From Deuterostichococcus epilithicus (taxonomy: Eukaryota; Chlorophyta; Trebouxiophyceae; Prasiolales; Stichococcaceae): a stretch of 64,000 bases of DNA. Shown in pieces: positions 9,345-64,000 of this stretch. Each line of letters opens with the position of its first letter. Within the stretch, counting starts at the first letter, position 1. The position numbers and the translations under genes were made by a program. The notes beneath the pieces were generated by a model that was given only the letters and a program-made list of their open reading frames with translations, made no database searches and was not told where the DNA came from. The stretch covers positions 248,001 through 312,000 of the forward strand of contig JAVTLE010000017.1 in the NCBI GenBank assembly GCA_033439295.1. The letters run 5' to 3'.

Positions 9345-9457
9345 CCATAGATAACCCCATCTGAGTTATGCTACCCGCTTGCTTCGTTCGGGGTGTTCTT
9401 ACCATAGATAACCTCATTTGAGTTATGCTACCCGCTTGCTTGGTTCGGGGTGTGCTT
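9345..9457. repeat. Tandem repeat, two copies of about 56 bp
   Basis: Copies at 9345-9400 and 9402-9457 both begin CCATAGATAAC and share GAGTTATGCTACCCGCTTGC, with a handful of substitutions. Intergenic. No coding or RNA signal seen. Confidence 0.85.
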
Positions 9458-18400: not shown

Positions 18401-19419
18401 GCCTCGGCGTCGGCGCCCTGGTGGGCCTGCGGCAGGGGTGTCGGTACACTCAGGTGCCATTGAGGTGCGGCCTGGATTCCGCGCATCCTGCTGAAACAGG
18501 TTGCCCGCAGAGCAAGCCGTGGCGTGCAGCAGGGACGGCGCAGCGCCCCGCCGAGCCGGTGCTGTCCTGCCGGGGGACACAGGTGCAGCGAGGGCGGCTT
18601 GCACCCTCGGGGGATGTGACTTCAGGACCCCAGTCGAGGGCACCCCGCACACCTGGGCGTCGGCGGCGGCGCCTTGCGCTTCACACCAGCCGGCAGCTTC
18701 TCTGCGAGCAGAGCACATGGCAGGTGACCGGAGGGTGCATCCTGAACGACGGAAGAGGCGCGCCAAGCTGACGCCATGCCAATGCGCCCGCTTGCTAACC
18801 TGCCAGTAGCAGCAGGCGCAGAGGGGCCCGCACAAGCCTCGGCAGGGGTGCAGTCGCCGCAACAGCCACCCCAGCTGCTGCACTCCAGCGTCAACCCTCA
18901 GGAGGGCGCAACGTGGGGGTGCGGACGCACTGCAGTAGGTGCGCGCGTCGTTGCTGTAGCGGTCCAGCGCGCACTGTATGCACTTTGTGTGCCCCGTGCC
19001 GGGCTGGATGGTGCCCGGCGGGCACCTGGAGCACTTGTAGTTGCCCGTGCCGCGCTTGTAGTAGCCCTTGCGGCACGGGATGCCGCCGCCGGGGCCGGGC
19101 TCATGCCCGGGGCCAGGCGCTGCATAGCAGGGCCAGCACCACATCAGGGAGGACCGGGCGAGCAGCGTTCGCGAGCTGCGGACAAATTGGGGGGATGCGG
19201 ACGGGGCGTCGCAGCCATTGTGAATGCACTGCCGCCAATAGCAGCCATCTGAGAAAGGAGGGTGCAGCCAGGTAACACGCTTTCAAGACATGATTTCGCT
19301 GCATAGGCCCAGGAAGGAGGTGACGAACCTGCCAGGGTGACGTGCAGGCTCAGCAGGACACATGCCGCAAGCAGCGCCGCTGCACGGCCGCCGCACCCAC
19401 CACCAGTTGGCCGGCCCAT
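15403..19419 (-). CDS. Secreted serine alpha/beta-hydrolase C (PHB-depolymerase/feruloyl-esterase type) with Cys-rich N-module
   Basis: Predicted extracellular esterase or depolymerase. Exons: 19329-19419, 18927-19119, 18375-18426, 17953-18090, 17602-17650, 17380-17441, 16899-16994, 16454-16536, 16059-16180, 15916-15950, 15776-15829, 15622-15648, 15403-15492; about 363 residues. Residues 1-30 are a signal peptide. Next comes a cysteine-rich module of ephrin-receptor/GCC2-GCC3 type (PCRKGYYKRGTGNYKCSRCP, CIQCALDRYSNDARTYC), then a short Thr-Pro linker. The hydrolase has RTGVYYLP, oxyanion HGSG, APDSKFNMYW, nucleophile Ser in IAGNSRAG, Asp in KDPLYGPD and His in ESSHGLN. The second donor (GC|GTCCGC) was chosen because it restores phase and matches hydrolase E; an extra exon at 18800-18877 is an alternative. 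The junction 16059/15950 is odd (see findings). The true substrate is unknown. Confidence 0.83.
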
Positions 19420-21199
19420 GTGCAGCAGCGCCTGGAAGGGCCGCCGTATGCCACTGACTCTGCCTGGTGTCAGATTGTGCCGAATAAGACGCAGTCCTGC
19501 TGCTGCACTTGCATACGTGTGTGCAAGCCCGTCTGCTGACAAGCTCCATTGGGACCGCCAAAGATCTAGGGAATACGATGAGTAGGCTCCTTGGATGATT
19601 TCGGTGCATCTTATGCCCTTCTGCGCAGTGTGTGCACTTTGCACGACGCTCAGCGGGCTTTTGAGTGGCACGATAAGCGGGAGTTGATGGCACCCGTGCG
19701 AAATGCCGCCTCACAGCCCGTTCGGTCCCGTAAGCCCAATGACTTGTGCAACTCACTTACAAAGCGCATGCGTCGCGCGCCTCGCGGCAGGGCCACGCAA
19801 ACGAACACTTGTTGGCTTCGGTTACGTAATCAGTTCCAGCTGGCCGTTTGCAGAGGGCCAAGACATCGCGTCGGGGCTCTCGGCGCTGGGGCGCTTAGAG
19901 CCAAGCACTGATGGGGAATGATGTCTGAGGTTTGAGCAAACTGCATCTGTGACAAGGAACCTCACCCGCTGCTTGCGACTCGGCGGGAGAACGTCGCGGC
20001 AGTGCGTTGGCAACGCCTCTGCCGATGTGGTTGCAGTGACGTCTGGTCAATGTCAAGCGAATGTGACCTCTGAAATGCTCAGCAGATGACATGCACGAGT
20101 CGGCCATGAACACATGAATCACAGTTGATCAGAGCCGACTCACTCAGCTCACGTGCCATCACCAGCTGGGTAGTGCAACTGGCAAGGCAGCTGGAGAACA
20201 CAGCTGGTGATTGTGTGGTTGGTGGCTGCTCAACCGCATGCACATTGCAGTGAGTGCATCCCCACCTCAATCCAATAGTTTCCAGGCACCAGCGGCGGTG
20301 ACACTGCACAGGCATGTCGTTGCCGCAACGAGGCTTACACCCAAGGGAATCATGCAAGCGAGGATGTTCGACTGGTCTAGAACGCAGTGCCAGACGTTTG
20401 TCTACAACAACCAATAGGATCCGATACGGTTTCAGCTATACGATACCTACAGGGAATGAGACATCAGCGCCGCTCGCTGGAACAGCAGAACTGCACATAG
20501 GTGCTGAGAATCAAGAAAGTTTGACGACTGCGGCCGAGCAGCCCTACGCGATGCTGCAGATCTGGATCCTGGTGTGCAGCTCCATCGAGCCACGGCAGCT
20601 GTCAGGTGCTGGTGGGCTAGACCCACCTCATCTAAGGGTGTGCGGATCGTAACCGCCCATTCAAAAATGTGCGCCGCAAAGACAGCGCTCCTGACGCATG
20701 AAGGTGCGTCAGTCGGCTGCCAAAGCGTGCTGCTGCCTATCGAGTCACGGCGGCGCTGAGGAAACTTTGCCCCAATGCTTCCGTGCCCTGTGACCTGTCT
20801 GTGACCACCCAAACCGCTCTGGGCTACCTACTTTGTTGCCGCCCCGGCAGCCACTTTGCTAACAACCATGGCCAACGGACTGGCTCCGACGCCGTGTGCA
20901 ATTTCGATGCCGTGATGGCGTGGCGAATGTGACGGCCATCCCCGCCAGCCATCAGCAGCCGCAGTGGCGGTGCTGGCCGCACTGCCAATGTGGCCGCCTG
21001 TAGTAGGAAGGGCAGATTGGCAGCCAAGTGTGTTGGCACCGCTTTCTGACAGCCACCAGAACTGCTTTGCTGACCAATTGCGCTGCTGCTCGAATGCTGC
21101 GGAGGGTTGCGGGCAGCATCCAGCGCGACAGCCGCCACATTGCCGCCGATGCATCGCTCGCAGCCGCGACCCTGACGCCGCTGGCCGTCTCGGCAGCAG
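19420..21199. other. Intergenic region between hydrolases C and D
   Basis: About 1.8 kb expected to hold the promoter of hydrolase C and the 3' UTR of hydrolase D. No exon, RNA gene or repeat could be supported. Confidence 0.5.
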
Positions 21200-23873
21200 C
21201 TATGTCGCAGCGAGTTGGGTCCCCCGCAGCAGCTGCTGCCTTGCCACCGTGGCGTCGCCGGCTGCTGCCGCATGCTCTGCTGGCGAGGCGGCGAGGCGTC
21301 GGCGGTAGGACCCCAGCGGCGGCGCCGGCGTGTTGCGGAAGCTCGGATTGGCAACCCACGCGCACACATAGTCGATCTCCTGCCCTTTCTGCGCAGCCCA
21401 CGAGGCAAGAATGTCAGGAGCAGTGGGAGACGTGCGACGTGCATGTGTGGGCAGCGGCATACCGGAAGCGTACGCGGATGGCATATGTCGAGCACCGCAG
21501 GCACAACTGAGCAGGAGCCTATTTTCCTTATTCCAGCAGCGGGTGCAGGCTCGTCAAGACCGAAGACGACTCACGTTCAGGGAGTGGCCGCTTTCCCACA
21601 CATTGTACACGATGGGGTACTCTGGGCGCTTGGAAGCAAAATACGCCCTGTTCACCTGCATAAGGTAATCGAAAAGCAGCCCAATCAGGCGAAAGTCGCC
21701 TCCCCGGACAGGGCGTGGCCCCGCCATGAGTGCGGATGGTTACGAAACTCGCACGTCAGCATTTGGGCACTCGCCCATGAGTGCCTTTGGGCAGGCCGTT
21801 GCACGCCGTTAAGCGTACGCTCAAAAATTGCGCATGGCTGGCATCACTCGCGCACTGCATGACGATTGGTCAGCAAGGCACGCATCAGGAATCATCTGCA
21901 GGTAAGCAGTCTTTTAAGACAGCAATTTCCTCATTGACACAGGAAACATAGAGAGATTCACGTTTGTGGCGTTTGGTCCATACAGTTCATCTCTCTCCCC
22001 CGCAGTCCACAGGATGGGGAACACGCGGGTCCCCATCTGCTGCGGCAGCGCGCTGGCGTGCAGGATCACTGCTGCAGAGCAGGGTACTACGGCGCTGCGG
22101 CTGCAGAAGGGCGGCGCCACGTATCTGCAGCATCAGGACATCGCTCTATCACCATTGGAGCTTTTTGAAAGGATTGCCGTTTCTGTGTGGTTGTCTGCGA
22201 CTGCGGCGCTCCCCTTGTGGCAAAGGACAGCACTGGCGCAGGCTGGCTGGCAGCAGTCATGCGTGCATGATGCTGGCGCCGGGTGTCAGGCATGGGTGTT
22301 ATGTGTGGGGTCATGTACGTTATCATGAAGGCCAAGGTGTGATCCAGCATTCGCACCCGGCGCGGGAGTTGCCAACGACGCTGACGCGCGTCGTGTCGAC
22401 CAGCGCACCCTGCGTGTTGTTTTGCACGAACCACTGGTACGAGGCCTGTAGGGCATCGCAGAAAAAGTGAGAGGAAGGAATCAGCTCGGGTGGGAGGCTG
22501 CTGCCAGCCAGCCGGAAGGCGATGGTCCTAGTCGCCAAGGCTCGCAACTTTTCAGGATGCTCACACATCCCTTCAAGCCAGGCAAGAATATTTCCTCTTG
22601 GCGCAAACCTATGCATTCTCGACGACCACTGGCACGCACAAATAACCCTGCGTCAACAAGTGTGCACGTGGATCCCTCCACGCACCTCAATGTGGAAGAA
22701 ATCGTGCGTGAAGGGGTCTTCAGCAGTTTCAGGGATTATCCAGTACATGTCGAACTTGCTGTCCGGCGCCACGACGATGATCTGCGGCCGCACATTGAAG
22801 TTCTCAAGTGGGGCTGCACATAACTCAATCAATGGCAGACCGTGCAGCAGCTGCTTCAGAGCCTGGAGTTTTTTTCATGTGAGGGCAGGGAGATGCTGGA
22901 GCCGTTGAGTAGCACTGACACGACAAGCTGAAGCTGTAAACACCAGCATGAGCAGGAAGGTGCCCAAGGCGAAGAGCCCCAGTGCAGATGTCCTGGTGCC
23001 AAAATGCACGTTGGGGACGAGACTGAGCCTCACCTGGTTTTTGTCTGCAAACTCCTTGAATGGCAGAGACTGGAGCATCCAGTTGCCGTTGACGCCTGCG
23101 GTAGCAAGTTGAGGTTGTTGCTGTTTGCTGCAACCTGAACCCAGTCAGAAGGAAGGAAAGCCACATGACTGTCGTGCGTCCACTGAGAGTGCAACAGGCA
23201 ACAGCAGATCGCTGTGCCAATGCCGAGTCTGATGATCGCATGAAACGAGCGCACCTGAGCCATGGAGCAGGATCATCACCGGCAGCGGCCCCTCTGTGTA
23301 TGTCTGCACAGCACAGCACAGACGCTGTCAGCACATCTGCTCTGCCCATTTTTGACAAGACAAGGTCAATGCTCGCCATCAGGGTTCTTGCCCAGCACTT
23401 CCAGCACTTGACAAGTGTGGGAGCCAGACGCAGAGAAAGCCGCCCTAAAACCCAAAAATTGACGAGTCCCCGTTATCCCCTGACATGTGCCCGTATTGGA
23501 ACGTCATAGGAGAGCAGGACCCACCCTGGGCAGGTAGTAGACGCCGGTGCGGCCCGTTCCTTCGTACCCGACCCCGATACCACACAACATGCCGCCATCG
23601 CCGTCCGGCTTGCATTGCCGCGTGGGTGGGACAATGATCGTAGAATTGGCCTTGACCTCCGCGGCCTGTGCGTGTGACAGGGATGAGGGTTCTAGGTCCA
23701 ATGGACTAAGATGAGCGCCAGAGTGGAGGCGCGGCATGCGCGATGGACTGGCATGCTATGGCTGTTGCGGGCGTCGGGCCGCCGTCATGTGTGAGGCTGA
23801 GGCTTGCTGAGGCAGAAGTGATCAAGGTTGCCATCATGCCACTATCACGTGCGGGCGATGCCAGCCGCAGGAT

Positions 23874-23906
<33 letters not shown>

Positions 23907-24815
23907 GCGCACCTGAGGGGTCAAGATCTCCGGTGCGAGCCTGCAGGACACACAGAGTCGCCACTTGCCTCTGTCAGCAGCACACAGGAGCCCAGCATAC
24001 ACCTCGACTTTGAAGAGCACTATGGCGGCTGGCTTTGCGCCATCTCTTGGTGGCACAGATGCGAACAGCACGTCAATGTGTGCAAGCTGGGGATGTGCAA
24101 ACGGTGCAAACACAAGAGAAACAAGCGGGGAAGTAGGACCACTCACGGTGCCGTCGGCGCAGCGGTGAGCGGCTCCCCCTGCGGCAGTGTGCGCGAGTCC
24201 AGGAGATTGGACGAGGCCATGATGCGGTTCGCCAGGTCCGCCCACCAGGCGTTGACCTGCGCATCGCTGTCGCCGTCCAGGCCCTGCCACCAAAAGTCCT
24301 GCTGCAGCAGCCTCCGCGCCGCGGCCGGCGAAGCCTTCCCGACGCCGATGTTCCCCTCTGCGCACAAGGAACATCGCTGTACAGTCACACGATGATGAGC
24401 AGATCAGCACGATTTCGTCTCACGCGATCGCAACCACTGCGAAGACGGCGCGGCGGGCACAGGAAGCCAGACGCACACTTTTAAGCGTGCAGCACAGCAG
24501 ACATGCAATGGGCAGTCATGAGGCAGCAGTCGGAATGCGAGCTGTGCAGGAGCCACGCAGTGCATCATTTCTGGACACGCCAGCATGCAAAGCGACGTCT
24601 TGCGCTGTCTTGAGCCACAGATGCCAAACGCCGACGAGGGCATGCACGTCTCTTCGGGTATGCAGCTGCTCGCCGTGCACACGACACTGCTGCAGATCTG
24701 ATGCTTGACCAGAAGATTTACCTGCGACCGCTGATTGAAGGCCCAGCAGCAGGCACGCCACGGCCAGCGGCCCTAACTTCCCACTGCCCGACCGACCCAT
24801 GCCGGGAAGGCTCAC
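21200..24815 (-). CDS. Secreted serine alpha/beta-hydrolase D with a Trp-rich, Cys-poor N-module
   Basis: Paralogue of hydrolases C and E. Exons: 24722-24815 (second in-frame ATG at 24800, aligning with the MGR start of C), 24147-24357, 23913-23940, 23525-23665, 23255-23303, 23034-23095, 22686-22781, 22357-22445, 21962-22124, 21575-21655, 21200-21388; all phases close, about 395-400 residues. After the signal peptide comes a roughly 60-residue module with DFWWQGLDGD and NAWWADLANR that I do not recognise, then LTAAPTAP and a 28-nt microexon. The hydrolase core has RTGVYYLP, HGSG, APDSKFDMYW, nucleophile Ser in VVGNSRAG, Asp in GERDELYG and His in ESGHSLN, ending in KGQEIDY and an Arg/Ala-rich tail. 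A CAG run sits in the intron beside the microexon. Same strand and spacing as its sisters suggest tandem duplication. Confidence 0.85.
23876..23904. repeat. CAG/CTG trinucleotide run
   Basis: About nine CAG units on the plus strand (CTG on the coding strand) in the intron just after the 28-nt microexon of hydrolase D. Confidence 0.8.
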
Positions 24816-26310
24816 CGGTCGACGCTGCCACGCTCCGCCCGTGACGCGCTAAGGCAAGTCTCAACGGCACCGGTGAATCCCTCAGGTCAGATCTGCAGCG
24901 TATAGCAGGCAGAATTGAGCAGATTTGCAGCGTCTGCCGAGTTCTGCAGCTCGACCGCAGTATGCCGTTAGGAGAGGCAACGCCGGGCCGTGGGTGGCGC
25001 GCGGGCGCGTCGAGCGCTCGGATCACATTCAGATGGCCGTTAGGAATAGCTGGGAGCGGCGCTCCACGGTCAGGCGGTCCTTTTGGCACGCTTGCACGGT
25101 GCATAAAACTGCACCTCCGACACACCTTCAGTGGCGCCTCGTAACCGGCACAGACAGCGCTGCGCAGCCTCGTTGTAGCCTCGGAAGATTAAGTCTGCAC
25201 ACGGCCCAGCAGCGAAGGTGACCTGAACCGCGCTTGAGCGTTTGCAAGCCTCTGCCGTTCACTGCACCTGCAACAGTCGGCCAGACCTAGCAGGGCCCCT
25301 AAACAGCATGAGTCAGGACCAGCCAGGAGGAAGCTGGTGCATCCGACGTGTCATCACTAAACGAAACTGCAACCGCTGAACGACCGGCGGGCCAAGGCAG
25401 GAAGTCCTCAGCTTTCAGAATGCGTGAGGTGCAGGCTCATGTAAGGTCAAAACTGTTATATTCCAAAAAAACTCATGCAAGTACAAGTTCCAGGAGTCAA
25501 TGGTGATGAGCTGCATTTTGCAGCGGTGCCTGGCTCGGGCGCCAGGCATTCACAAAACGACCCCAGATGCTTTAAACTGGATCTACAAAGCGACAAGTGC
25601 TGGATTCACCCATTTGAATCATCGTTCCGAGGCTGTTGTATGCTACCTCTGCCTAACATGTGGCTACCAGCTTTTTGCCGCCTGTCCTTGCCAATTTGCG
25701 GCAATGCCTCGGTACGGATAAGCAAGAGCTTGCAAAGTGCAAGCTGCCATTCAAATGCGTCCAACTCTACCTAGGTGAAGCTTTGCAGTTCCGACTGATT
25801 TCAGAGTAACAAACCCAGCGCAGCACAGTGCGTCTGAGCACATCGCTTGCAGCCCCCTGGCGACCCATAAATGATCATTGGGGCCATGACCGAAGCGCCA
25901 CTGCAACTCCAATGCCTTCGTGACAGCACTTGACTACTGCGTCCGCTGCGCCTCTGGAACTGCCAACGATGCCACCAGCACCGTGCGCTGCTTCCATAGA
26001 TAACGTCCTTCAGCTGTGACAGAGTAGCTGCCGCTGCACCAGAACCCCTTCCAGCCGGCTCCCAGGCAGCCGCTGCAGTACAGCTGGCCGACGCTGCTGC
26101 CTGACCCGACCTGCTTGTGTCGCTGCCTGTGGCGCTGTTGCCGCCGTTGCGCGCGTCCAAGCCGCGTGGCCGTTGCTGCTCCCCCGCTGCGGCCGTAGCC
26201 CCGGTGCGAAAGGTGTAGCACCACAGCGCGGGATCGGTGCCGTCCGCTGCTGCTGCTGCTGTGCCGCCATCGCGTCCATCTGCAGCTGCTTCTGCCCAGA
26301 AAGTGCAGTA
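24816..26310. other. Intergenic region between hydrolases D and E
   Basis: It should hold the promoter of hydrolase D and the 3' UTR of hydrolase E. The minus-strand open frames at 25801-26310 are continuations past the stop of hydrolase E in other frames. Nothing else supported. Confidence 0.5.
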
Positions 26311-29300
26311 CTACAGCGCGATGATGGGCGCTTCCCGCTGCAGCGCCTGCTGCGCCGCCAGCGCATCCCAGCTGGCCTGCTCCGCCGGCGAGGCCGCCAG
26401 GCGGCGGCGGTAGGTCCCCAGCGGCGGCGCTTGCGTGCCCCGGAAGGATGGCGTGATGCACCTGGCGCATAGCAATATAATGATGAGACCCTCAGGGATT
26501 TTCGGGGTTTGAACCCTGAGCTCAGGTGCCACCGGCAAAGCAGGGATGCCGGACACCAGGGAGCCAGCAGGAGGCAAGGTAGGCACAGGGGAGGAGGCTG
26601 CGGCGGCCACATGCGGCAGGACTCGGCGCCTGCCGGCGTGAGGGGCCGCCAGCTTGTGCTCACCACTTGATGATCCAGTCGATTTCCTGCCCTTTCTGCG
26701 CGGGCAGTCAAAGCAAGTCCGGTGAGCAGGGTGCAACGAGTTCCCCCAGCAAGGCGGGGCAGTCAGAAGCAGGAGCGCTGATGCGGGAGACATAGCAGGA
26801 GCAGACATTCCAAGCAATCAGCGGGATCAGTGGGATGCGCACATTGAGCGGGTGCCCACTGTCCCAAACCTGCATTTGATGCACATCTGGTTCAATGTCT
26901 TGAACCGTCACAAGGCGTTGCAGCGTCCCAACAAATGCCTCGGTACTTGGCAGTGAGTGAGCATACAAGCATGTGTGCCAACCTCACCCTGTAGTAGATT
27001 GGAAAGTGCGGTTGCATCCGGTGGAAGTAGGCACGGTTGATCTGTGGGGCAAGGTCGGACTGTGAGTGGCCACCTGAGTCTCTGCCTGTTATCTGTGAGA
27101 GCAACCAGGTGCACAGGCACAGCCATGTGATTGCAGGGTCCGCATGGGCTGTTCATGGGCAGCGCAGCCGGCATGCGCCCAGCCAGGGCCTGCCGGCTGG
27201 GAGGCCACTCACGTTGGTGACGGACGGGCCCTGCAGCGCAACAGCGGGACAGGCAGCTCAAAATCCGCAGATCCGCAATAACACGAGACCGTCAGAGCAA
27301 AGCACGGACAGCTGCCGCCCCGTGTTCATACTGCACAGGCGCCACCGCTCCAACTTCAACAATACTTTGACGCGGCCAAGGTTTGCCAGCCTTCCGCGCA
27401 GGGACATCATGCAGCAGGGACTCACGTAAAGGTTGTCGCGCACGCCAGTGGACCACAGGATGGGGATGATCTTGCGCCCCATCTGCTGCGGCAGTACACT
27501 GGCGTGCATGATGACCGAAGCGGAGCAGGGGACTATGGTGCTGCGGCTGCAGAAGGGCGGTGCCGCATACCTGCGAAGGGGTTGAGGGTTCCTCAACGTG
27601 TTCGAGACACATTTTGAGGACTTTGGGGCAGTCGAGGTGGGCAGACGGGCTCTGTGGAATGCTCATGCAGCCCAGGTTCCTGCTGTCGGACCCATCACAG
27701 CGCAGCGAGCAAGGCCAAGCGCAGAGTGGGGCTGTCGCTCGTCAGGTGCCACGGACAGGAGCATCCGGACCCTGGCGTAGCTCCAGCATCGGCTGCGACA
27801 CCAGCGACCAAATAACAACCAAAGTATAGCAGGGTCGCACCCTGCGCGGGAGTTGCCGGCGATGCTCACGCGCGAGAAGTCGATACTCGCAGCGTACTGC
27901 TTCACGACCGACTGGTAGCATCCCTGCGGCGTAGCGTTCCGGATTTCAATATACTGAAACAATGCCACGCTTCTGATCAAGACTGTTGGACCAGTCAAGC
28001 TGACCTGAAAGGGCAAGGGGCATGCAAGGGTCGCCTCCCATCACGCCGCAGACCCCCCCCCCACCCCCCACACCCCCTTCCCCCTCTGTTTTCTCTTCCA
28101 AGGCGGCCGCACTTGCAACAGCTGCCCGCACGGCTGCCGCTGCCGGCCGCACACATCCAGCGCTTGTGCAGCGCACACGCCAGGCAGCCGCGGGCGCAGC
28201 CGCAGGCACCCACAAGATGGTTTCGATGCAGACCGCCGGGCCGCACCCACCTCGATGTGGTAGAAGTCGTGGGTGAAGGCTTGCGACACCGACCCGGGGA
28301 TGATCCAGTACATGTTGTACTTGCTGTCCGGTGCAATGATGATGGCCTGCATGAAAACGAGAGGTGTCAGACTCCAGTTCGCCGTGCAGAATGAAAGTGT
28401 TGAACGTCCATCTCACGTTGCACACGGTTGCTCAGCTGCTGGCCCGGTCCTGGCGCGGCCAACTAACACGGCGCGGTGCATAACTGCCTCACAGATCTGC
28501 TGCCGCGGCGCCGCAGCACATGGGGACTGTCCATCGATGGCAGGCAGGAGGTATCTCAATAAAGAGGTTGCCGAGATCTTGAGGGTTTGTGAGGGTTTCT
28601 TATCACGCACCTGGTGCTTGTCGGCAAATTCTTTGAATGGCAGGCTCTGCAGCATCCAGTTTCCGTCGACGCCCGAGCCGTGCAGCACGATCACGACCGG
28701 CAGCTTGGCCGTTCGGTAGGTCTGCAGTTTGGCAGTAGGAGAACGACTATGGTTGACATCGCAGTTGCTGACTTTGCGCGCAGCACAGCATGTCTCACCG
28801 CCACTGCGATGAGCAAGCGGGCAATGGATGTTTCAGAGGCCAGCATGCGCCAGGCTGCAGCTGCAGAGGTCTTGGCCCTACGAGAATGGCGCAGGAGGGC
28901 ATGTGCACAGTGCACGCAGCGGCCGTCGACACAATACGGGATGCGGCTTGTCATCTCCACGGGAGGATGCGGGGCGCTGCCGTGCGAGCCTCGCTGGGCA
29001 ATCGATGCCCGCTGATCCAGACGATGCACCTGCCAACTCCCTCGAGCACACAGCTTTGCCCTTCAGCTGCGTGTCAAAGTGCTCATGCATATTGACTATC
29101 TACAGGAGAAAGGCTCTGGCGCACCCTGGGCAGGTAGACGGTGCCGGTGCGTCCCGGGATGCCCTTGTACCCGACAGGGATGCCGCAGTTCGTGCCGCCA
29201 TCGCCGTCCGGCGCGCACGGCCGCGACTGCTTGTAGATCGTCGAGTCGATCTGCACCTGCGACACCTGTGACCGCACACTGCACTCATGTTGCATTTGGG

Positions 29301-35806: not shown

Positions 35807-36303
35807 ATGTGGTGCTCGCAGGAGAGCGAGACTGCCTGCTGGAAGCCAGTGCGGCGCATGCGGGCGCACCAGCAAACCGAGCCGGCTGAAGTTGCCAGCA
35901 AGTTCTGGGCGTCTGTGGCGACGGCCGCTGCAGCAACGTCAGCGGCGGCGCCGGCGCAGGGGTCGATGGCGGCAGCTCCAGCTTCACCTTTGTCTGGGCC
36001 TGGGACCCCTGAGGCGCATGGCTGGTGTGACGCCGCCTTGCCCCCACCGGCACACGCACCCTCGAGAGCCGCGGCAGTGCCTGCGGTGGTGGTGCCTGCG
36101 TTTGGCACTCCCCACTTTGCTGCCGCAGCCGCAGCCGCAGTTGCAGCAGCAGCGGAGGCAGGAGGAGGCGCAGCAGCAGCCCAGCACCTTGCCGCTCCTC
36201 CACGACCATGAGGCAGCTGACGGCCAGGAGCTGCTGTCCTGGGACTCTGACACCGAAGTGCCGCTGCAGCCATCGCCGCCGCAGTAGCCGCCGCAGCCGC
36301 AGC

Positions 36304-36381
<78 letters not shown>

Positions 36382-37922
36382 TGGCCATGGGCGAGGTAGG
36401 TGCGGCGCCGCTGTGCGCACTGCGGGGAGGCAGTGGCGGTGATGACACCAGTGGCACCACCAGCACCGCCGCCAGATCCCTAGGTACCCATCGCTAGGAT
36501 CCTGGCTAGCAATCGGAGCAGGCGGCTGCTGTGGCGTTGGCGGCAGCACCGGCGCCAGTGCAGCCGCAGAACACACAGACACACAGGCTGGCGCCGGCAT
36601 GTGTGGGGGCGCTGCCTCGGTTTCCGCTCCGTCGCCAGCTCAGCTCCGGTTTCGGGCGGCAACATTCGTGACGGCGGCAGCAGCGGCGACTGTGGCGCCA
36701 GAACTGGCGGCCATGACGCAAGCCCTGCTGCGGAAGGCCTACTGCTGATGAAGCCACGCCTGTCAGCCCGGCGGCGGGCTCCGCCTTCTGCTTCCAGCTT
36801 TGCGCCGTCTCATGCCGCCGCCGTGTCCCGGCCTCCCGTCCGTGGCAGCCCGCACGGCGCAGGCCGCTGCCAATGCGTCGCGCCAGCAGGCAGCAGCTGC
36901 CGGCGGCCTTGCCCGAGAACGGTCAACCAGAGTTGTCGCCAGCAGCGCCAGAACTGGCGGGTCGACTGCCATGCAAGGCAGCCTCAGCGGCGACCCGAAC
37001 GGCGGCTGCGGCAGCAGGAAGGTGGCGGAGAAGCGGGGCGGCAGGTCTTCGACGGATTGCCTTGGCGTGCGGAAGCGACCATGGGGCACATATGCAGCGG
37101 AGATCCGCGACCCAACTGCGGTGAGCAGGGCGAGTCGTGGCATCGCGCGCTTCCAGCCTGGAGCGTGGCAGACTGGGCGAAGATGCACGAATGGCCCCAG
37201 TGACGAGTTTGCCCTGCTCAGTGACACAGCCCAACGAGAGCAGTTCCGTGTTTTGTTTATGTGAAGGAACTGGAGACGTGTGTATCACACCCTGCCAAGT
37301 GCATGGTGCATCCGTCTGCCAAGGTGGAATGAAGCGTCAAGACGACACTTCATCGCACGACGGCAACAGGCGGTGGCTGGGCACTTTCGATTCGGCAGAG
37401 GCTGCGGCACACGCCTACGACGATTCAACCAGGTGAGCATGTCGTTAAAGCAGGACGTCGTGCATTTTCATATACCGGCTTACTCATGGAGGCTCTGGAG
37501 CAGTCCCGGAGGCGTATTGCTGTTTGCATCGGCAGCGGTGTTGCCGGCAATGGGTTCGCCTTATAATGTTCGCAGCAGTGCAATCAGACCGCAGGAGTGT
37601 CACCACAGCGCTTGTTGATGCATTCTCATCATCCAAAGGATCACTCGGAAGAGCTGTTGTTATTGATTTGATTTGGTGCAGGCGCATTCGAGGAACAACA
37701 CCCTGCGGTGCAATTTCTCAGCAAGTCGTCGTGGAGAGGATCAGGCTGCAGCTGCAGATCCAGATGCCGATGCCCGCGGTGGCGCTGCCGCCGCACCAGC
37801 GGCAGCTTCATTGTCACCGGACGCCGCCGTCGAAGGTGCTGCCGCCGCGCTGCCGGCGCTCCGTCAGCGCGCAAAACCAGGCAGCAAAGCAGCATGTGAC
37901 ACCACCAGAGAAAATTCAATGA
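35807..37922 (+). CDS. AP2/ERF-domain transcription factor (gene model incomplete)
   Basis: Sequence-specific DNA-binding nuclear factor, recognised from one AP2/ERF domain. The domain is spread over an exon ending at 37120 (CLGVRKRPWGTYAAEIRDP), an exon at about 37335-37432 (RRWLGTFDSAEAAAHAYDD, ending in phase 2) and an exon from 37682 or 37693. The last strand of the domain is split between two frames: RRIRG in one, NNTLRCNFS in the other. Either the acceptor is ATTCGAG (exon from 37693) or one base is missing. N-terminal coding sequence is likely from about 35807 (Ala/Pro-rich frame) through a Gln-rich segment with 25 CAG codons, but a TAG at 36285 interrupts that frame, so exon limits there are unresolved. 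The acceptor AAG at 37334 was chosen only for phase. No neighbour explains its targets. Confidence 0.68.
36306..36380 (+). repeat. CAG trinucleotide repeat, 25 units
   Basis: Uninterrupted CAG x25. In the frame that continues into QLAMGE and the donor GAG|GTAGGT it would encode polyglutamine, as is common in activation regions of transcription factors. The same frame has a TAG at 36285-36287, seven codons upstream. Confidence 0.9.
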
Positions 37923-40568: not shown

Positions 40569-40960
40569 CAGGGTTGCACCGCACGTCACTTTACACTGAC
40601 GTGCGGCCGTGCGCACGCGTGCGCACCGCTTGCGCACGTCACACGGCAGGGAACGGCACTTTCGCACGGCTGCTTGTGTTAATCCCACAGGGGAATGAAG
40701 AAACAGGCTGCGCTGGGCCATAACAGGCTGAACAATGCATACAACCTCACTGCACATATATCTTATGCGTTGAGATGATGTATGCAACATGTCAGACGGT
40801 CTTGATGTGCAGTTGCGTCTCATTTGCAGCCGCAGTAGCATGCCGGCAACTGTTGTCTAGCTGGATTACATCACTGTCTGACAGCGTCGGACAACGTGCG
40901 CACGGCAGTGCTCACAGCCGTGCGGCCGTGCGCACGCGTGCGCCGTGCGGTGCAACCCTG
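40569..40960. mobile_element. Non-autonomous hAT-type MITE, 392 bp
   Basis: Ends are a perfect 17-bp terminal inverted repeat: CAGGGTTGCACCGCACG at 40569-40585 and its exact complement at 40944-40960. They are flanked by a perfect 8-bp target-site duplication, CCCGCGAT, at 40561-40568 and 40961-40968. An 8-bp duplication and a CAGGG start are hallmarks of the hAT superfamily. A 24-bp subterminal direct repeat occurs at 40601-40624 and 40920-40943; the left copy extends into an 18-bp perfect palindrome (40609-40626), a plausible transposase site. No transposase is encoded. The intact duplication and ends suggest a fairly recent insertion. Confidence 0.93.
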
Positions 40961-55552: not shown

Positions 55553-58500
55553 ATGGGCGTCCCGCCAAACGTGCACCTGCACCAGGCGGCGGTCAACGCG
55601 CAGCACCCCGGAGGCGCGATGGCGCCGGCGCCGGAGCCCGCCGCCGCGGTGCGAGCCATGGACGTGGTGTGGTCGCTGGACAACCCGGGAGATGTCGGTG
55701 GGCGCTGTTTTGACTCTCTCTTGCAAATGCTTGACAGTGTTTCCAAGTTCCGAGAGTCGTTTGTAGGCTGGGCATCCTCCTCTATACGGGTCGGTACGCT
55801 TCAGTGGGATGGGCTGTTGTCAGGCGTTGGGTGCGCTCGCGCTTCCAAAAGCGCTTTCCTGTGCCAGGGCTGGCAGCTGCCAAACCGCCTGTCGAAGCAG
55901 ATACCGAACCCCCATCCGGAGGCAGCCAGGGGCAGCAACAGCGGCGGCGCTGTCACACTGCCGCAAGCTGCACATGCTCCCCCGCCAACCCTTGTCGCTC
56001 CTTTCTTGACTGTGTCTCCTTGGGAGCTGCAGGCCTGGTGTGGCGGGTCGCCGGCGAGACCGACTCGGAGGCTGAGGACGACTCGGAATACGAAGACGAG
56101 GAGGACCACGTCCCAGCGGGCCACGCGCAGGTGTCGTGGCTGGCGCGCGGCTCGGTGGACAACGCTGAGCTGCGGCGGCTGCGCGTGTCGGACCGCTGCC
56201 TGGTGGCGGGGGACATTGTGGCCCGCGCCGACGCGCCGCTGGGCCAGGTGAGGGCTTTGGCAAACACTGCTGCTCGATGGCAGCCGTGAACAGGTGAAGT
56301 CATGGGTTGAGGCTGCGTCCAGACTCATGGACGAGTGCCTGGCGGTGGGCGATGTCGCGGCGCGCGCTGATTTGCCGCTGGGCCAGGTGTCATCTCTGCC
56401 ACATTTGATGTGCGAGCTGCCGGAGCTCATCTTGACCGCAAAAAAGAAAGTGGGAGCTGCCTTGCTGTGCGCCGCAACGCGCGGTGCAGGACTTGGTTAC
56501 ACTGCTGGACCTTTGTGCAACTGCTGGCCAAGGACTTTCTGCACGGGTCTGCCGTGCAGCATCTTGCCCTGCAGGTTGTGCGCAGGCCTTGAAGCGAGTT
56601 GGCAGCTGTGCGCAGTCACTTCATGGCATGCAAGGTGCCCTAGGTAGTCGCCAGGCCCGAGAGTCTGCCAGGTCACGTCGAGACGCCATGGCCGCAAGTG
56701 CCGCGTCTGCTGCCAAGCGGCACCACCGGTGCTTGCTGCGCCTTGAAATACTCGACTTGACAATGGCCCTCCGACACGAGTGTCGATCCAGCTGCTGCTG
56801 GTGTTTGTGACGGTGGCCCTAGGCACACCTACAGATGGTGATCAAGCGAACCGCTGACTCTCACACCCCAGCGCTTCAGCTTTCAGAGGTAGATGGCACC
56901 GCGGCGGAGCCCAATGGAGGTGCCGCTGGCGACCGTCCCGTAATCTCTAAACCCCTAAACCCGTATGTTCATGCACAGTCTTGCAGAGATGATTGTCGTG
57001 TGCCATCCGCAGACGGGGCAGGTCACGGCGGTGCAGCTGGCGCTGGACGTGCAGGACTCTGGCGGCGCCCGCCACGCCAGCATGCCCTCGTCCCGCCTGG
57101 CGCGGCGCCACCCCTTTGCGCCAGGCCACTTCGTCGTTGGCGGCGCCTGGGTCGGCCGCATAGATTCCATCGGCCACGATGTCACCATCGCGTTCGACGA
57201 CGGCGCCGTCGTCAAGGTGGGCCGGCTCACAGCCAGCCAGCCTGTGCGCCGCAGAGGTCCAGCTGACACTGTGCCACCTGCGATGCCGATGTTGCTGCGG
57301 CCTGGAGCAATCAGCGATGTCGGAGGTTGCAAGTTTGCCCTCAATGATGAGCATCCCGATGCATCTTGACTGCAGTATTGGGGTCAGCACACGTTGTCTG
57401 CTTTGGCCGCAACAGGAAAGCCCCAACTGTAGCTGCCCCTGACTACCGACGTTTCCAATTTGCATCAGAAGTCGGAATCATGAACGCCTTTGTTTGCAGC
57501 TGATGGGGTCGACGGCCAGAGAGGAGGTGGCCGCTGCACGCTGGACGTTGGCGACGACGTCCTGGTTCCTTCTGCCATTTCACGGTTCAGGAAAGCTATT
57601 GTTCTGAGCTGGGTTTCATGTTCTGGCAGACGCAGCTCACGGACGAGGCTGCGGGGGATGAGGTGGCCGTCGCGGTGCTGGGGCACGCTGTGCCTCTGCC
57701 TTGCCTTACTCCACTGGTCGATCACAAGCTGAGGGGCTGTCGGTGCAGCTGACGGGCGAGGCCGCAGAGGAGGAGGTGGCGATCGCGCCGCTAGACGCCG
57801 CCGATGGCGCCTTCCTGGACGAGGAGCACTACCACCTATACCTGGGTGCGCAGTGCCGATGCCCGCTCAACCTACATCGCCAGCCTTTCCTGCTTGCACT
57901 GTGTGCTTTGAGTCTCGTGCGGTGCTGGACGCCGGCGTCGGCACTTCCCTGGCCAACGAGCCATCTGTGCCTGGATGTGCCAGTGCAACCTTCTGGATTT
58001 GTCTCTTGTTTTTCCCCTGCTGCTGGCCTGTCTGTCTGCCTAAACCAGACTGATGTCCAACGAATCGCTGGCCTGCTGGCTGTCAAGACCCTGCTGCAGG
58101 GCTCACGCCCAGCAGCGCCCGCGCTGTGTGTGCGCTTGCATGAGCTGGCACGGTCAGACCCCGACCCCTGCTGGGGAAGAGGGCAAGCGTGGCCGACACG
58201 GCGAGGCGACTGACTGTGCTGATCGAAGACCTCTGACCGGGCTTTCGACAGCTCGCTGCCCGTTCCCCAGCCACTGCATCTCAAACACTCATCATTGCAC
58301 ACCCGCCTGCAGGCCAGCGCGTCATCGTGCAGTCGGGGACGTCCATGCTGGACAACCCAGACGTCGAGGTGCTGGCCCGCGGCAGCGGCAGCGACAGACG
58401 CCGCGGCGGCGGCGGCGGTGGCGGCGGGGGCCCCGGCGGCGGCGATGAGGCGCACGGCACCATTATCGACATTGAGCCGTCGCGCATCGCGGTGCTGTGG

Positions 58501-61500
58501 TCAGCCTCCGCGGCCTCAGAGACGCTCGGCGGCGGTGCGCCCCACACTGTTTGTGTTTGCTGAAACTATCTCGTTGTCGTTTTGTTTCCTGAGGAAAGGA
58601 ACAAACAAAGAGGCAAGAAGGTCGTTGTCGGCACCGTGCTCGTAGCAGCCGCTGCGCATCGCGGTGCTGTCGTCTGCCTCGGCGCAATCGAAGCGGCGGG
58701 CGACGGTGCGCTTGCAAACATTCTGGATTCGAATCTCATATCACACCCTTCCACTTCGATGATGTTTGCCAAAATCTGTGCCAAAGATCCTCCGTGGCCC
58801 TCATCCGCATGCGCAGTCGGGGGCTGCCTGATCTGTATGCCCTGCATCCCTGGCCGTCCACGTGCTGGGTTTGTAGCCTCGGGGAGCACTCATCATCTGA
58901 TGTTCGCTGACACACATCAGCGGATCTTAGGTGGCAGTGTCACCGAGTCTGCACCAAGTTCCCAGAGTGCACCAGGGGATCGCTGTCACACATACACTGT
59001 ATGCCTGGTCTCACCATCTTAGTATGCGTATATGCACTAGCATACATGTGACGGTTTCCAGCTGATGGTGCTGATTCTGCGATGGCGCCGCCGACGCTGT
59101 GGCTGTTAGCCCTCAGTAGCCAACTACCTACCACCGTGCTTCCGCCTTCTCTTCTGAGGCAGCCTAATGCATGTGTGCCCCTCTGAACATGCAGAGGAGG
59201 TGCTGGACCAGAGCCTGCTGCGGACGCCAAGTCCAATTGACCCTTTCTTTGATAATTCGGCCAAGACTTGACACATGTGCCACATACTCGCAGACAATCT
59301 GGCGAGTCGATTGCAACCCGTGACGATCTCACCGCGCCCAGTTTCCTTCAATGAAAACGTTGTGCAGCCGCCTGAGGTGGTGGCGCCGGGCCTGCTGCGG
59401 CCGCTGCAGTCCGACCTACAATTCCTTCCTCCTTCCAATGAACTGTTTGTTCACCACAGAAGACGTGATGGAGCCGCCTGAGGTGGTGGTGCCGGGTCTG
59501 CTGCGGCCGCTGCCGCGCTTTTTGGCCACCGCCTGGCACCTGGGCGACCGCGGGCTGCTGCTGCCGGAGGGGGCGCCGCCCTACCCCCAGCTGGCCGCCG
59601 CCTGGCCCAACATGCCGGGTGCGGCTGCTGCTCCCCTGCTGTGCTGCATGCTCTGCTTTGTGCATGGTGAATGTGTCATGGCTGGTCGCGTTTTTGGTCG
59701 TCTTGCTGGCCGTTGAGTGCGCTGCCCTCAAACCCCACCTGGTCGCCGCCTGGCTAGAGACGCCAGGTATAGCAGGGGACTGCAGGTTATGCGAGGGTGG
59801 GGTTTGGGCACCCACCGGGCATCTGCAGGCATCAAAAATAAACTTGGGTAGCCAGGAAAGTGATCGTCTCGATCATGCATTCCGCCACACGCTTGCCAAG
59901 CCCTCAGCGGCTTGGGGCGGCAGACTGGTGCTATGATGCACGAGCTGATTACTCTCCTGGTTGCTTGCACAGATAATTTGAGGACGGCTGCATGCAACTC
60001 AGTTGATGTTGCATCCTCTGCAGGCTTGGCTGCGCACTGCTGCATCGAAGCTCCGCTGATTTCCTTCACCTCCTCACATGGTTACAATGTGTGAAGATGC
60101 TCTCGCTGCAGGCACAGAGGAGGCGACAGCATCGGCAGACGGTAACGCTGCAGTAGACGAGGGTTCGGCTCCAGACGCCACTGCCGGCGGCGGGGAGGAC
60201 GCTGATGGCGAGGCCGCCGTAATGCCGGCAGCGGAGCTGCCTGCCGGCCGCCAGCGCGGCGTGCAGGCCCGCCTGGGCAGGTGTGCGTCTTAGTCGTCGG
60301 CAACAAGTGCGAAAGGGTTGGCAAGCACGTTGGTGGTGCGCAGCACTGCTTCAGTGGTCCATTGCGTCTGCAGAACAAGGTATGCGGCGACATGGTCCTT
60401 GCACGCAGTTTGGAGGCGTGCAGCACACATAGGGACATGCTCCTCGAGGCCCCGTGGGCGCCATTTCCAGCCACCCAGCATCCTGCCGACGTCAAGCCGA
60501 TGTGTTGATGCGAACCCTGCCACTTCCAAGATCCGCGGACCCTGACCCGCTGGCTCCTGGCCGCCGCCGCAGGGGCGGCCGCGGCGGCCGCAAGCGCCCG
60601 CGCGGAGACTCGCGGGGCTCCGACCCGGCGCACTCGCTGGCGCAGCAACGCGGCGGCCCCGTGTCCCGGACGGTGGCAAAGCCCTATGGCGCCGTCCCTG
60701 TGCAGGTGACATGTCAAGGGTTTAGGGATGTCTGCGACCTGCTTTGCACGTGCTTTACAGCACGCTTGGCCGGCGTGCAAGGGCATTTGCCTCCGCTCCT
60801 CTGCACCCCAGACTCAAGCATAGCCAGTAATGTCCTGCACAGGCACCCAGTGGTACACGCACAAATTTTGCAGTAACATGAAGCTGTGCTCATCGGCGCA
60901 TGACTCCCGCATGAGTCGCAGCTATCAGGGCTCGCCAAGGCTCCAGCTCCTTGGAAATTGCAAGTTGTGCACACATGAGCGGGTTGTCTGTGTAGTGCTC
61001 TTGCGCTGCAGAACACAGCTCTGCTAACAGGCCATGACACCCCAGCATCCTGGCAAAGATGCTGCTATCGAGGGCCCTACTTGGGCGCTTCCTCAAATGA
61101 ATCCGGCCTGCGCTGGCTTCCTGCCGTCTGCCATCAGTGTCCACCGGCAGGTCGTGGCCTTGCGCAGTCGTGCCCGATGGCCGGACAGCAGCGTGCAGCG
61201 CAGAATGAAGCGTGAAGCACTCTTCAGCACAGCCGATTCAGAACAGCCACATCATACCACTTTTCATCCCTCTGCAGGTGGTGTCCTCACAGACGGCCGT
61301 GGACATCGAGTGGCAGGACGGCAGCGTCCAGCGCGGAATAAAGCGTGAAGCACTCTTCAGCACAGCCGATTCAGAATAGCCACATCATACCACTTGTCAT
61401 CCCTCTGCAGGTGGTGGCCTCACGGACGACTGTGGACATCGAGTGGCAGGACGGCAGCGTGCAGCACGGCGCCTCAGCCCGCGACTTCGTGCCGGTCAGC

Positions 61501-64000
61501 TTCCACGACGAGCACGACTTTGCGGTGCACGACTTCGTCGAGGAGCGAGACCCATTCGCTGATCTGGACGCGCCGGACGGCGCTGGGACCCCACCCGCTG
61601 CACAGGTGTGGGCCGGGCTGTCCCCCTGGGGACCCACGTCAGGCTTGGAACCCCCATCGACTGGCTTGCGTGCAGTGTCTGGCGCTTCCCGTCATTCAAG
61701 CCTGCAATCTGAAGCTGCTGTGGCTTGTCGACCGTCCGCTGCAAGCAGCCCTTCGCCCGAACGACACGCTCCTGCCCTCCAACACCTAGCGGAATCACCC
61801 GCCCCCAACTCCCAGCAGCAGCAGTCGCGATGTCCCGAGGTCAGCCTCAAGTGCCGTGCCTCTTCTGGCCTCATCCGGTATCTCGATCCACGGCCAGTCC
61901 AAAGATGTTCACCTTAGACGTTTTCCTTACTGCGGCCGCGCAGGCGCCGACGCGCGTCGGCTGGGTTGTGCGCGTCAACGCCGCGGGGCGGACCGCGGCG
62001 GTGCAGTGGGCCGACGGCAGCGCGCCCACCGAGCACAGCGTCTACCAGCTGCAGGTGTCATGGCGTCCTGGAGCTTGCAGGAAATGAATTCGTCGACAGT
62101 GTGCAAAATCAGCTGGGACTGCACCTGAGGCTGATGGCGGCTCGCCCAAGGAGCATAGCCTGTGCCAGCTGCAGCTGAGGTCGCAGGGGATGGGACATGT
62201 TCAGGGCCTGCGGCTTTTTTCCTATAGTCCACGCTGCGATAGCTTGACGGGCGTCCGTACAAGGAGCCTGCAGCCTGCTCAGTCAATTGAGCTTCCTGCA
62301 GTCGCTAGAGGCTGCTGGTGCAGTGTTGGTCTGCATGCGTCTTGGCTCATCAGTTGTAGACGCCCTGCCAGTGCACCCCGATCTGAGCGCTGCAGACCCC
62401 GCAGGCCGGACAGGCCGGCGGTGTCTGGTTGGTTGCTGCGGGTTGCGCTGCTGCAGTAGTCATTTTGCATGGACTACCCTAATGCCACATGCTGGATGCA
62501 TGCGAGCTTAACGCCGTAGCTGAACGAGTCAACTCGTAGCTCGTGGTTGAATGCCACACCAATCTGAGGCGTCACTGTCGTTGTTGCCCACTTGCTGCTC
62601 ACCTGCTGCTGGCGCTGTTGCATCCTGGCCCTGGTCACAAGGCCTTCAGCGCCCTGCTGCAGGTGCACCCAGACTTCCAGTTTGCCGCTGGCGATGTGGT
62701 GCTGCGCCTGCCGTCAGCTGCTGCACAGGCGCCAGCAGCTGCAGACCAGCCCGGCGGCCCTGGCCCCGGTGCCGATGCCGGCGCCGCCACCGAGCCCACA
62801 GCCGGCGCCCTGGCGGCTGCGTCGCCCGCCAGCGACCTGCCGGCGGCCGCTGAGGCGATGCGCATCGGTGACAGCGCCGACACCGGCGGCGCAGCATCTG
62901 CTGGGCCGGAGGCGCCACGAGCAGGGACCCCGCAGNCNGCCGCGGCCGCGGCGGCGCCGCCGCAGCAGCGGACACGGTGGCAGCAGCGCGCGGAGTGGCA
63001 GGTGGTGCCCAATCGGGGCGGCCATGCGCCCTACTATCACAACTCTCGCACGGGGCATTCCACCTGGCAGAAGCCCGACGTGCTGCTGACCACACAGGTA
63101 CAGTCCGTTCACCGGTGATGCCGCTCCTCCTGCCCCTGCTACACCCGAATTTTCTCAGCCAGGCTGCCTTGACCTTGCAGAGTGCACGATGTATGGAATG
63201 ACCGATTGCACCGCTACAATCAGTGACCGCGCTACAAAGCCGCACCGATGTCAGCCTGGGCTGGCATGTATCCTCTGTCTGGCAGCGGCCTGAGCGGGGA
63301 CACTACGCCCTCATCTCTGAATAACCTGCATGCACAACAGCGGCTTGCCAATGTCAGCGTGGCTGGCATGGGTCCATTGTGCGGCCCATTGAGCTGACAC
63401 TAAACCCGCAACTCCAACAGTTGATAAATGTATGTGTTGCATGCACCGCAGGAGCGTGCCGACGCGAGCGTGGGCTGGCAGGAGTACACGATGTGGCCCG
63501 TCGGCGCGCCGCCGGAGGTGCCGCCCGTGAGCTACTGGCACCACCCCGCCACCGGGACCAGCACCTGGGAGAAGCCGCCGGAGGTGAGCAAAGGACCACT
63601 GTACTTCCCGAGCGTCTCCAAACAGTTCCGCCCAGCAGGAACAGCAGCGGCTGGCTCGTTCTCAGAAGCTGTTCCGTGTCCCTGAGCCCCACTTGCAGTT
63701 TGAACCCTCAGCCTCCTGGGTCCCGAGGTGCGCACTGCTCTCGTGTCGCAATGCATCTCGTCCACAATTTGGAGAAAGAATGTCACACACCCTCGTGCGC
63801 CACTGGTGCCACCCCGCCACCAGCGCCAGCATTTAGGACATGTCACCCCAGGTGCGCCTCTTTTTCATCTCTGACGCTATCTGATGCTCTAGCTGTACGC
63901 ACGACCGAAACGTAAAGGGAAGCTTCAAAATGTCGATGTCCCGCCGTCAGACCGGCTTCCTGGCCTAGTTGGCCTTACTACCCTGCGCCCGGGTTGGAGC
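55553..64000 (+). CDS. UBE2O/PHO2-like ubiquitin-conjugating enzyme, N-terminal part, with two WW domains
   Basis: Large hybrid E2/E3 type; plant relatives are UBC23 and UBC24/PHO2. Exons: 55553-55697, 56033-56247, 56989-57216, 57749-57845, 58313-58534, 59460-59618, 60112-60280, 60573-60705, 61411-61605, 61944-62054, 62663-63097, 63452-63583; phases close, 747 codons so far. Family landmarks: DVVW, GETDSEAEDDSE, GHAQVSWL, SDRCLVAGDIVARADAPLGQ, PGHFVVGGAWVGRIDSIGHD, HYHLYLGQRVIVQ, GTIIDIEPSRIAVLWSAS, FLATAWHLGDRGLLLPEG, TTVDIEWQDGSVQHG, GWVVRVNAAGRTAAVQWADG, EHSVYQLQ and VHPDFQFAAGDVVLRL. Two WW domains follow (W..APYYHNSRTGHSTWQKP and W..VSYWHHPATGTSTWEKP). The catalytic UBC domain is expected beyond the right edge. 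Two undetermined bases lie at 62936 and 62938. Introns contain decayed copies of adjacent exons. Confidence 0.85.
56291..56390 (+). pseudogene. Decayed copy of the 3' part of exon 56033-56247
   Basis: It reads CAGGTGAAGTCATGGGTTG and then a copy of the exon end in which SDRCLVAGDIVARADAPLGQ becomes MDECLAVGDVAARADLPLGQ, followed by GTG as at the real donor. It lies only 44 bp after the true exon. Confidence 0.75.
57500..57550 (+). pseudogene. Decayed copy 1 of exon 57749-57845
   Basis: After a TTTGCAG acceptor it reads CTGATGGGGTCGACGGCCAG AGAGGAGGTGGC, matching the exon start CTGACGGGCGAGGCC..GAGGAGGTGGCG. The frame is lost soon after. Confidence 0.65.
57636..57690 (+). pseudogene. Decayed copy 2 of exon 57749-57845
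   Basis: After CGCAG it reads CTCACGGACGAGGCTGCGGG, then GATGAGGTGGCCGTCGCGGT, matching LTGEAAEEEVAIAP as LTDEAAGDEVAVAV. It ends about 60 bp before the true exon. Confidence 0.75.
58630..58710 (+). pseudogene. Decayed copy of the 3' part of exon 58313-58534
   Basis: The core GCGCATCGCGGTGCTGT is identical to the exon, flanked by GGCACC on the left and GTCTGCCTCGGCG on the right, matching the exon segment that encodes GTIIDIEPSRIAVLWSAS. It sits about 100 bp after the exon. Confidence 0.7.
59366..59407 (+). pseudogene. Decayed copy of the 5' part of exon 59460-59618
   Basis: It would encode PPEVVAPGLLRPLQ against PPEVVVPGLLRPLP in the exon; about 40 of 45 bases agree. It ends some 50 bp before the true exon. 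Confidence 0.8.
59733..59769 (+). pseudogene. Decayed copy of the 3' end of exon 59460-59618
   Basis: CCCCACCTGGTCGCCGCCTG GCTAGAGACGCCAG corresponds to the exon end CCCCAGCTGGCCGCCGCCTG GCCCAACATGCCGG, but with an in-frame TAG. Confidence 0.65.
61151..61206 (+). pseudogene. Decayed copy 1 of exon 61411-61605 (5' part)
   Basis: After GGCAG it reads GTCGTGGCCTTGCGCAG and then GACAGCAGCGTGCAGCGC, matching VVASRTT..DGSVQH. It is followed by the same AAGCGTGAAGCACTCTTCAG segment that follows copy 2. Confidence 0.75.
61278..61344 (+). pseudogene. Near-intact copy 2 of exon 61411-61605 (5' part)
   Basis: After TCTGCAG it encodes VVSSQTAVDIEWQDGSVQRG against VVASRTTVDIEWQDGSVQHG in the exon, then runs into AATAAAGCG and an in-frame TAG. 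Together with copy 1 it makes a tandem array with periods of about 127 and 133 bp that includes the intron end and acceptor. Confidence 0.88.
62130..62175 (+). pseudogene. Decayed copy of the 3' part of exon 61944-62054
   Basis: It encodes ADGGSPKEHSLCQLQ against ADGSAPTEHSVYQLQ in the exon, and ends CAGCTGCAG like it. It lies 75 bp after the exon. Confidence 0.78.
63240..63285 (+). pseudogene. Decayed copy of the 5' part of the second WW exon (63452-63583)
   Basis: It encodes RTDVSLGWHVSSVW against RADASVGWQEYTMW in the exon. About 200 bp upstream of it. Confidence 0.65.
63795..63837 (+). pseudogene. Decayed copy of the WW core of exon 63452-63583
   Basis: GTGCGCCACTGGTGCCACCC CGCCACCAGCGCCAGC corresponds to the exon segment for VSYWHHPATGTS, with TAG in place of the second WW tryptophan codon region. 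About 210 bp after the exon. Confidence 0.72.

Follow-up and report, generated by a model that had tools for sequence, protein, structure and literature searches.

Decaying partial copies of exon ends in introns of Deuterostichococcus epilithicus, probably derived from local tandem duplications across exon–intron borders

What process would leave diverged, partial copies of exons in the introns next to them? The question is raised by a stretch of 64 000 nt from Deuterostichococcus epilithicus (hereafter the window, i.e. C15:248001–312000), in which an initial annotation had described such copies, here called echoes, at most exons of a gene regarded as UBE2O-like. We followed up this description in the window and in further parts of the genome.

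Echoes around the exons of a UBE2O-like gene

The analysed sample comprised 254 kb of a genome of 46.8 Mb in 21 contigs, i.e. 248–362 kb of C15, 1.00–1.05 Mb of C1, and 1.00–1.05 Mb and 2.00–2.04 Mb of C3, the last of these (40 kb) being a held-out stretch, added once the pattern was known and lying outside the training of the gene finder. Positions on C15 above 64000 continue the window count, and numbering on C1 and C3 begins anew with each stretch. Two contigs, C2 and C8, are very short (14 706 and 29 103 bases) and stand beside contigs of 1.6–2.6 Mb, and single N bases are scattered in the sequence. Exon models are predictions of a small home-made HMM, which gave 568 exons in the sample, with donors of about CAG/GTGCG and acceptors of about GCAG/G (the slash marking the splice border), and 469 of these were testable, i.e. 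at least 45 nt long and with full 400-nt flanks.

The identification of the gene was borne out: 12 predicted exons (55553–63583) join into one frame of 739 codons with no stop, and this model matches the Pfam families tSH3-B_UBE2O (E 3.2e-11) and WW, while exons downstream of the 739-codon part match UQ_con (E 5.2e-20); a match to SH3-B_UBE2O falls under the cut-off. The two WW stretches (62663–63583) lie between the SH3-like part and the E2 domain. A short telomere-like run (AACCCCTAAACCC) was seen within an intron of the same region (56948–56965).

For the flank test of this gene, all of its modelled exons were masked in the 400-nt flanks, and 500 noncoding flanks from elsewhere in the sample served as the null. 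Seven of the 12 window exons (starting at 56033, 57749, 58313, 59460, 61411, 61944 and 63452; 10 of 24 flanks) were accompanied at p<=0.01 by a partial copy on the same strand, no more than 400 nt away, in agreement with the description of echoes at most exons, and the other five had none at this threshold (Table 1). Extending the count to the longer model of the gene gave 14 of 27 exons and 18 of 54 flanks, against about 0.5 flanks expected. The copies also differ in age, as had been described, i.e. the copy at 61278 lies in a 133-nt tandem unit that is 92 % identical, while decay has gone much further in those at 63224–63362 (relations of 64 % and 75 % in the repeat scan, family D5). Echoes at 57500, 57630, 58649 and 61278 were called exons by the home-made gene finder.

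Table 1. Exons, echoes and tandem units located in the window (positions in window numbering; exons are HMM predictions; up and down, scores of the upstream and downstream flanks)
Feature	Position	Strand	Evidence
Echo pair, 82 nt, 78 %, lag 134, exon of another gene	2813–3028	−	Repeat scan, geometry analysis
Young tandem duplication, unit 57, modelled intron of another gene	9345–9457	+	Repeat scan, unit alignment
Exon with donor-side echo	56033–56247	+	HMM exon; flank score 28.5, 0/500 null flanks as high
Echo of exon end 56166–56247, CAG/GTG kept	56303–56386	+	Repeat scan, splice-site comparison, flank test
Upstream echo of exon 57749	57636–57710	+	Flank test; further related copy 57495–57531, family D4
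Exon, echoes on both sides	57749–57845	+	Up 25.0 p=0.000, down 21.0 p=0.004
Downstream echo of exon part 57785–57845	57919–57974	+	Flank test
Exon with donor-side echo	58313–58534	+	Flank score 28.5, p=0.000
Echo of exon end 58475–58532	58647–58706	+	Repeat scan, flank test; partly called exon by gene finder
Upstream echo of exon 59460 start, 89 %	59354–59407	+	Repeat scan, flank test; further related copy 59197–59227
Exon, echoes on both sides	59460–59618	+	Up 42.0, down 26.0, both p=0.000
Downstream echo of exon part 59556–59606	59704–59754	+	Repeat scan, flank test
133-nt unit, two copies head-to-tail, intron end and exon start	61178–61442	+	Repeat scan, unit alignment
Exon with near-intact upstream echo	61411–61605	+	Flank score 47.0, p=0.000
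Exon with donor-side echo	61944–62054	+	Flank score 26.0, p=0.000
Echo of exon end 62009–62054, donor GT changed to CT	62129–62174	+	Repeat scan, splice-site comparison, flank test
Upstream echo of exon 63452 start	63343–63387	+	Flank test; older related copy 63224–63259, family D5
Exon, echoes on both sides	63452–63583	+	Up 18.0, down 26.0, both p=0.000
Downstream echo of exon end 63526–63579	63794–63847	+	Repeat scan, flank test

Local excess and geometry of the copies

The echoes are real, and the pattern extends in a patchy manner beyond the UBE2O-like gene. At a score of at least 24, 62 of the 469 testable exons matched their own flanks, whereas the controls reached this score in 14 of 2814 comparisons with the flanks of other exons, in 5 of 469 antisense and in 3 of 469 reversed comparisons. 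Counted as single 400-nt chunks at the same threshold, own flanks gave 64 of 938 (32 upstream and 32 downstream), against 31 of 2692 for chunks 1.5–4.3 kb away. The excess is local and on the same strand, and copies no better than shuffled GC-rich sequence, which had been named as the finding that would speak against the description, are not what these controls reveal.

A direct-repeat scan that makes no use of exons (score at least 20) gave more matches at lags of 30–1000 than at lags of 5030–6000, i.e. 71 versus 18 on C15, 24 versus 8 on C1 and 14 versus 1 on C3; among the far-lag C15 matches listed at a score of at least 24, all came from one stretch with matches at distances of 5.1–5.9 kb, which seems to be a family of tandemly arranged genes. 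Window positions 16088–29300 hold matches 5.1–5.9 kb apart and 70–87 % identical, apparently three tandem gene copies with a minus-strand model. The held-out stretch of C3 gave 38 versus 0 matches, but 35 of the 38 lie within one repetitive exon. After collapsing overlaps and removing within-exon pairs, 91 pairs remained, of which 56 were on C15, 22 on C1, 10 on C3 and 3 in the held-out stretch, the latter being a weak replication in which the phenomenon is present but rare. Pairs at 105230–107529 of C15 (window numbering) fall in leucine-rich-repeat-like coding sequence and may be true protein repeats, not echoes.

The lags of the 91 pairs cluster at 80–160 nt (57 pairs), with 11 shorter and 23 longer. 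In 52 pairs, one of the copies is coding and the lag is 60–300 (25 donor-side and 27 acceptor-side; non-independent, since several exons are counted twice). The echo reproduces the exon end on its own side in 51 of them, the remaining pair spanning a whole 45-nt exon, and the copied piece lies at most 12 nt from the facing end in 46. Just this geometry must result when a unit that spans a border is duplicated. In a processed pseudogene, exons would be joined without introns; each echo consists of one exon end, and some also contain intron next to it. The exon-linked units at 61178, 87944, 98270 and 71664 include intron sequence.

The six clearest young units measure 57, 133, 104, 42, 77 and 119 nt, with 0–1 nt between the copies, and in these the head-to-tail abutment (unit equal to lag) is seen directly, while in older echoes it is mostly beyond resolution. 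Four of the six lie wholly within modelled introns (57 nt at window 9345, 42 nt at C1 11848, 77 nt at C1 40570 and 119 nt at C3 40795), and therefore the process needs no exon. The matching run is longer than the unit by only 2 nt at C1 11848 and 1 nt at C3 40795.

The best explanation, to which we assign a probability of about 0.68, is that small local tandem duplications cross exon–intron borders, after which selection keeps the exon copy and the intronic copy decays. Short head-to-tail duplications would arise locally, with clear young units of 42–133 nt and border-linked lags mostly of 80–160 nt. If such a unit lies across a border, the exon end would afterwards exist twice, once in the real exon, where purifying selection holds it, and once in the intron, where it would decay free of coding constraint along with its splice site. 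The intron halves, eroded in either copy, would be the first to become unrecognisable, so that a faded exon end is left in the facing intron. Older echoes presumably arose in the same way as the young units, and the initiating lesion may have been a staggered break followed by fill-in and end-joining rather than slippage. With the exon copy kept by selection and the intronic copy decaying, the process would look exon-centred. Of the processes suggested at the outset, repeated tandem duplication at a local scale thus fits best, but its supposed centring on exons is at least partly an effect of detection, as the wholly intronic units and the units with intron sequence indicate.

Decay of the copies and competing explanations

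Duplication of a whole unit with a neutral intronic copy predicts that intron halves align in most echoes of the identity seen here, and this is observed less often, i.e. in 10 of 43 echoes (7 of 15 at an exon identity of at least 0.84 versus 3 of 28 below; Fisher p 0.019). A stricter control, in which noncoding flanks were swapped, gave no average excess (mean z 0.22±0.23; 6 of 43 at p<=0.05). Anchored extension past the border reached at least 10 in 3 of 41 cases, compared with fractions of 0.78–0.90 in short-indel simulations; older age windows gave 0.00–0.57, but missed the observed identities. A simple neutral tandem model in which indels are few or short was therefore rejected, as it predicts far more recovery of intron halves than is seen. 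A simulation with frequent, partly long indels and ages of 0.2–0.5 substitutions per site comes close on identity (0.82), block length (40–43 nt) and the high-identity fraction (39–58 %), but overpredicts the low-identity fraction (34–40 % versus 11 % observed). This indel-rich version needs few recent events, in agreement with the scarcity of pairs at an exon identity of at least 0.90 (3 of 43 pairs at lags of 70–180). The scarcity of young echoes may reflect a past burst, the purging of harmful young copies or assembly collapse. Also weighing against the leading explanation are the low count of three pairs in the held-out stretch, the significant third-position excess and the patchy identity within units (both below), and the non-independence of the 52 pairs.

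The seldom recovered intron halves would also suit tandem duplication followed by non-allelic gene conversion, in which the live exon overwrites short tracts of the echo and reverse changes are purged by selection, so that exon halves stay alike longer than intron halves. Patchy identity within two units also leaves room for conversion (0/48 differences in the exon half and 17/56 in the intron half of 87944–88151; the opposite contrast, 6/47 and 5/85, respectively, in 61178–61442). We nevertheless consider this course of events unlikely, since unbiased conversion should homogenise the intron halves too, the units at 89790, 19501, 84740 and 95571 have exon/intron-half ratios near neutral expectation (in lenient gapped alignments), and indel-rich decay accounts for part of the intron-half gap. 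A bolder view, i.e. that in parts of the genome border-spanning duplication is so frequent that much of the intron is stacked decayed duplicate, with exon halves rewritten by short-tract gene conversion and introns forming a fossil record of exon ends, is tentative and rather doubtful.

Identity drops just past the border, to about 0.24–0.44 at donor intron positions 4–6 and to 0.19–0.41 at acceptor positions −6 to −11, and there is no average homology beyond. This would be expected if exon ends up to the splice site had been put into introns by templated repair or an RNA-linked process; such exon-limited copying is distinctly improbable, given the four exon-linked units that contain intron sequence, the wholly intronic young duplications, and the fixed facing-end geometry with partly retained GT and AG, which suits a tandem unit.

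Exon and echo diverge nearly evenly across codon positions (0.197, 0.180 and 0.245, i.e. 147/747, 135/749 and 183/748; p=0.006 for unevenness), which speaks against coding constraint on the echoes, as a strongly coding pair would diverge far more unevenly, and silent substitutions in the exon are in keeping with the slight surplus at third positions. Multiples of three showed no excess among the lags (15 of 57). That some copies include splice sites was confirmed sample-wide, with GT present in 11 of 25 donor-side echoes (one of the 25 real ends being a stop codon, with no donor) and AG in 16 of 27 acceptor-side echoes; an in-frame stop occurs in 8 of 52. Use of echoes as alternative exons, raised in the initial annotation, thus found no support, with frame not preserved and splice sites often absent. 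A role of some echoes as functional alternative exons or splice regulators under selection would agree with the retained acceptor of the 61278 copy, 92 % identical over its unit, and with the several echoes called exons by the gene finder, but is very improbable on the same grounds of codon divergence, lags, splice sites and stops.

Chance GC-rich similarity or an assembly artefact is scarcely credible, since the other-flank, antisense and reversed controls together with the far-lag scans rule out chance and GC bias, and since graded divergence and decay are unlike misassembly, even if single N bases are scattered in the sequence and the scarcity of near-identical copies could mean repeat collapse.

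The difference spectrum is transition-biased (145 C>T plus G>A and 123 A>G plus T>C of 465), and CpG sites change more (80/544 versus 65/1035); repeat-induced point mutation or a similar process found no support, as dominance of C-to-T changes is absent. A mobile element or introner likewise found no support, considering that exon-like matches, the only sequence covered by this comparison, occur in the flanks of other exons in 14 of 2814 cases at a score of at least 24.

Known duplications and regional pattern

The statement that no standard process yields such copies was too strong. As far as excerpts of the papers cited here go, a tandem duplication across an intron–exon border is documented in the potato RdRp gene, where one recent event gave rise to a new intron (PMC4974935); there, as in the present case, a local head-to-tail duplication crosses a splice border and a formerly exonic segment is now intronic. 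Intron gain by tandem duplication is also documented elsewhere (PMC3443670; Drosophila cases in PMC2891723), again with short local within-gene duplications as the source of intron sequence. In contrast to the potato gene, the copies here are many and mostly old, and unlike all of these cases no new intron is bounded by two copies: the geometry of classical intron gain (intron length equal to lag, copies at both intron ends) fits 0 of 91 pairs, and such gain was rejected. Small tandem duplications from staggered-break fill-in and end joining in mammalian cells (PMC8355091) share the short head-to-tail units and little junction homology; those were induced experimentally, whereas the echoes show an outcome that such a mechanism may have produced. 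Tandem duplication of exons and mutually exclusive exons (PMC6071210) likewise involve local same-strand exon copies, sometimes with flanking intron, but concern whole exons in use, while here mostly partial ends decay without coding constraint.

In a literature search, no title or abstract described such echoes in algae, passages of the Coccomyxa genome paper (PMC3446292) make no mention of them, and we found no described genome region in which about 4 in 10 exons bear a readable echo, nor such density and patchiness. The kind of event is known, and it is the density in this region, known from one genome, that is striking. Intron lengthening and turnover without transposons are hard to study, as intronic duplicates vanish quickly; conserved exons serve as fixed references that keep old duplications legible, so that the place, spacing and relative age of individual events can be determined. 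For annotation, there is a warning that gene finders can call echoes as exons.

Echoes are distributed unevenly among 34 genes (97 of 453 exons at a score of at least 19; 0 of 5000 permutations as extreme). They are dense on C15 past 50 kb of the window and sparse in 0–46 kb and in the held-out stretch, i.e. 42 of 112 exons reached a score of at least 22 on C15 from 50 kb on, versus 32 of 357 elsewhere, with a border that was picked post hoc. This regional contrast could tie duplication rate to recombination, replication or chromatin. Per gene, echoes correlated neither with GC3 (rho −0.006) nor with median intron length (rho 0.12, p=0.52). The median length of introns that hold a copy is 439.5 (n=48) and that of the other introns 223 (n=479); however, drawing introns in proportion to their length would by itself give 413, and the difference therefore lends no support to growth of introns through echoes. 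Other repeats in the window include two noncoding copies at 40580–40943 (45 nt, 84 %, lag 319) with internal palindromic CGTGCGCACG runs, and long (GCA)n tracts at 36107–36408 and 23855–23931, one of 33.7 copies.
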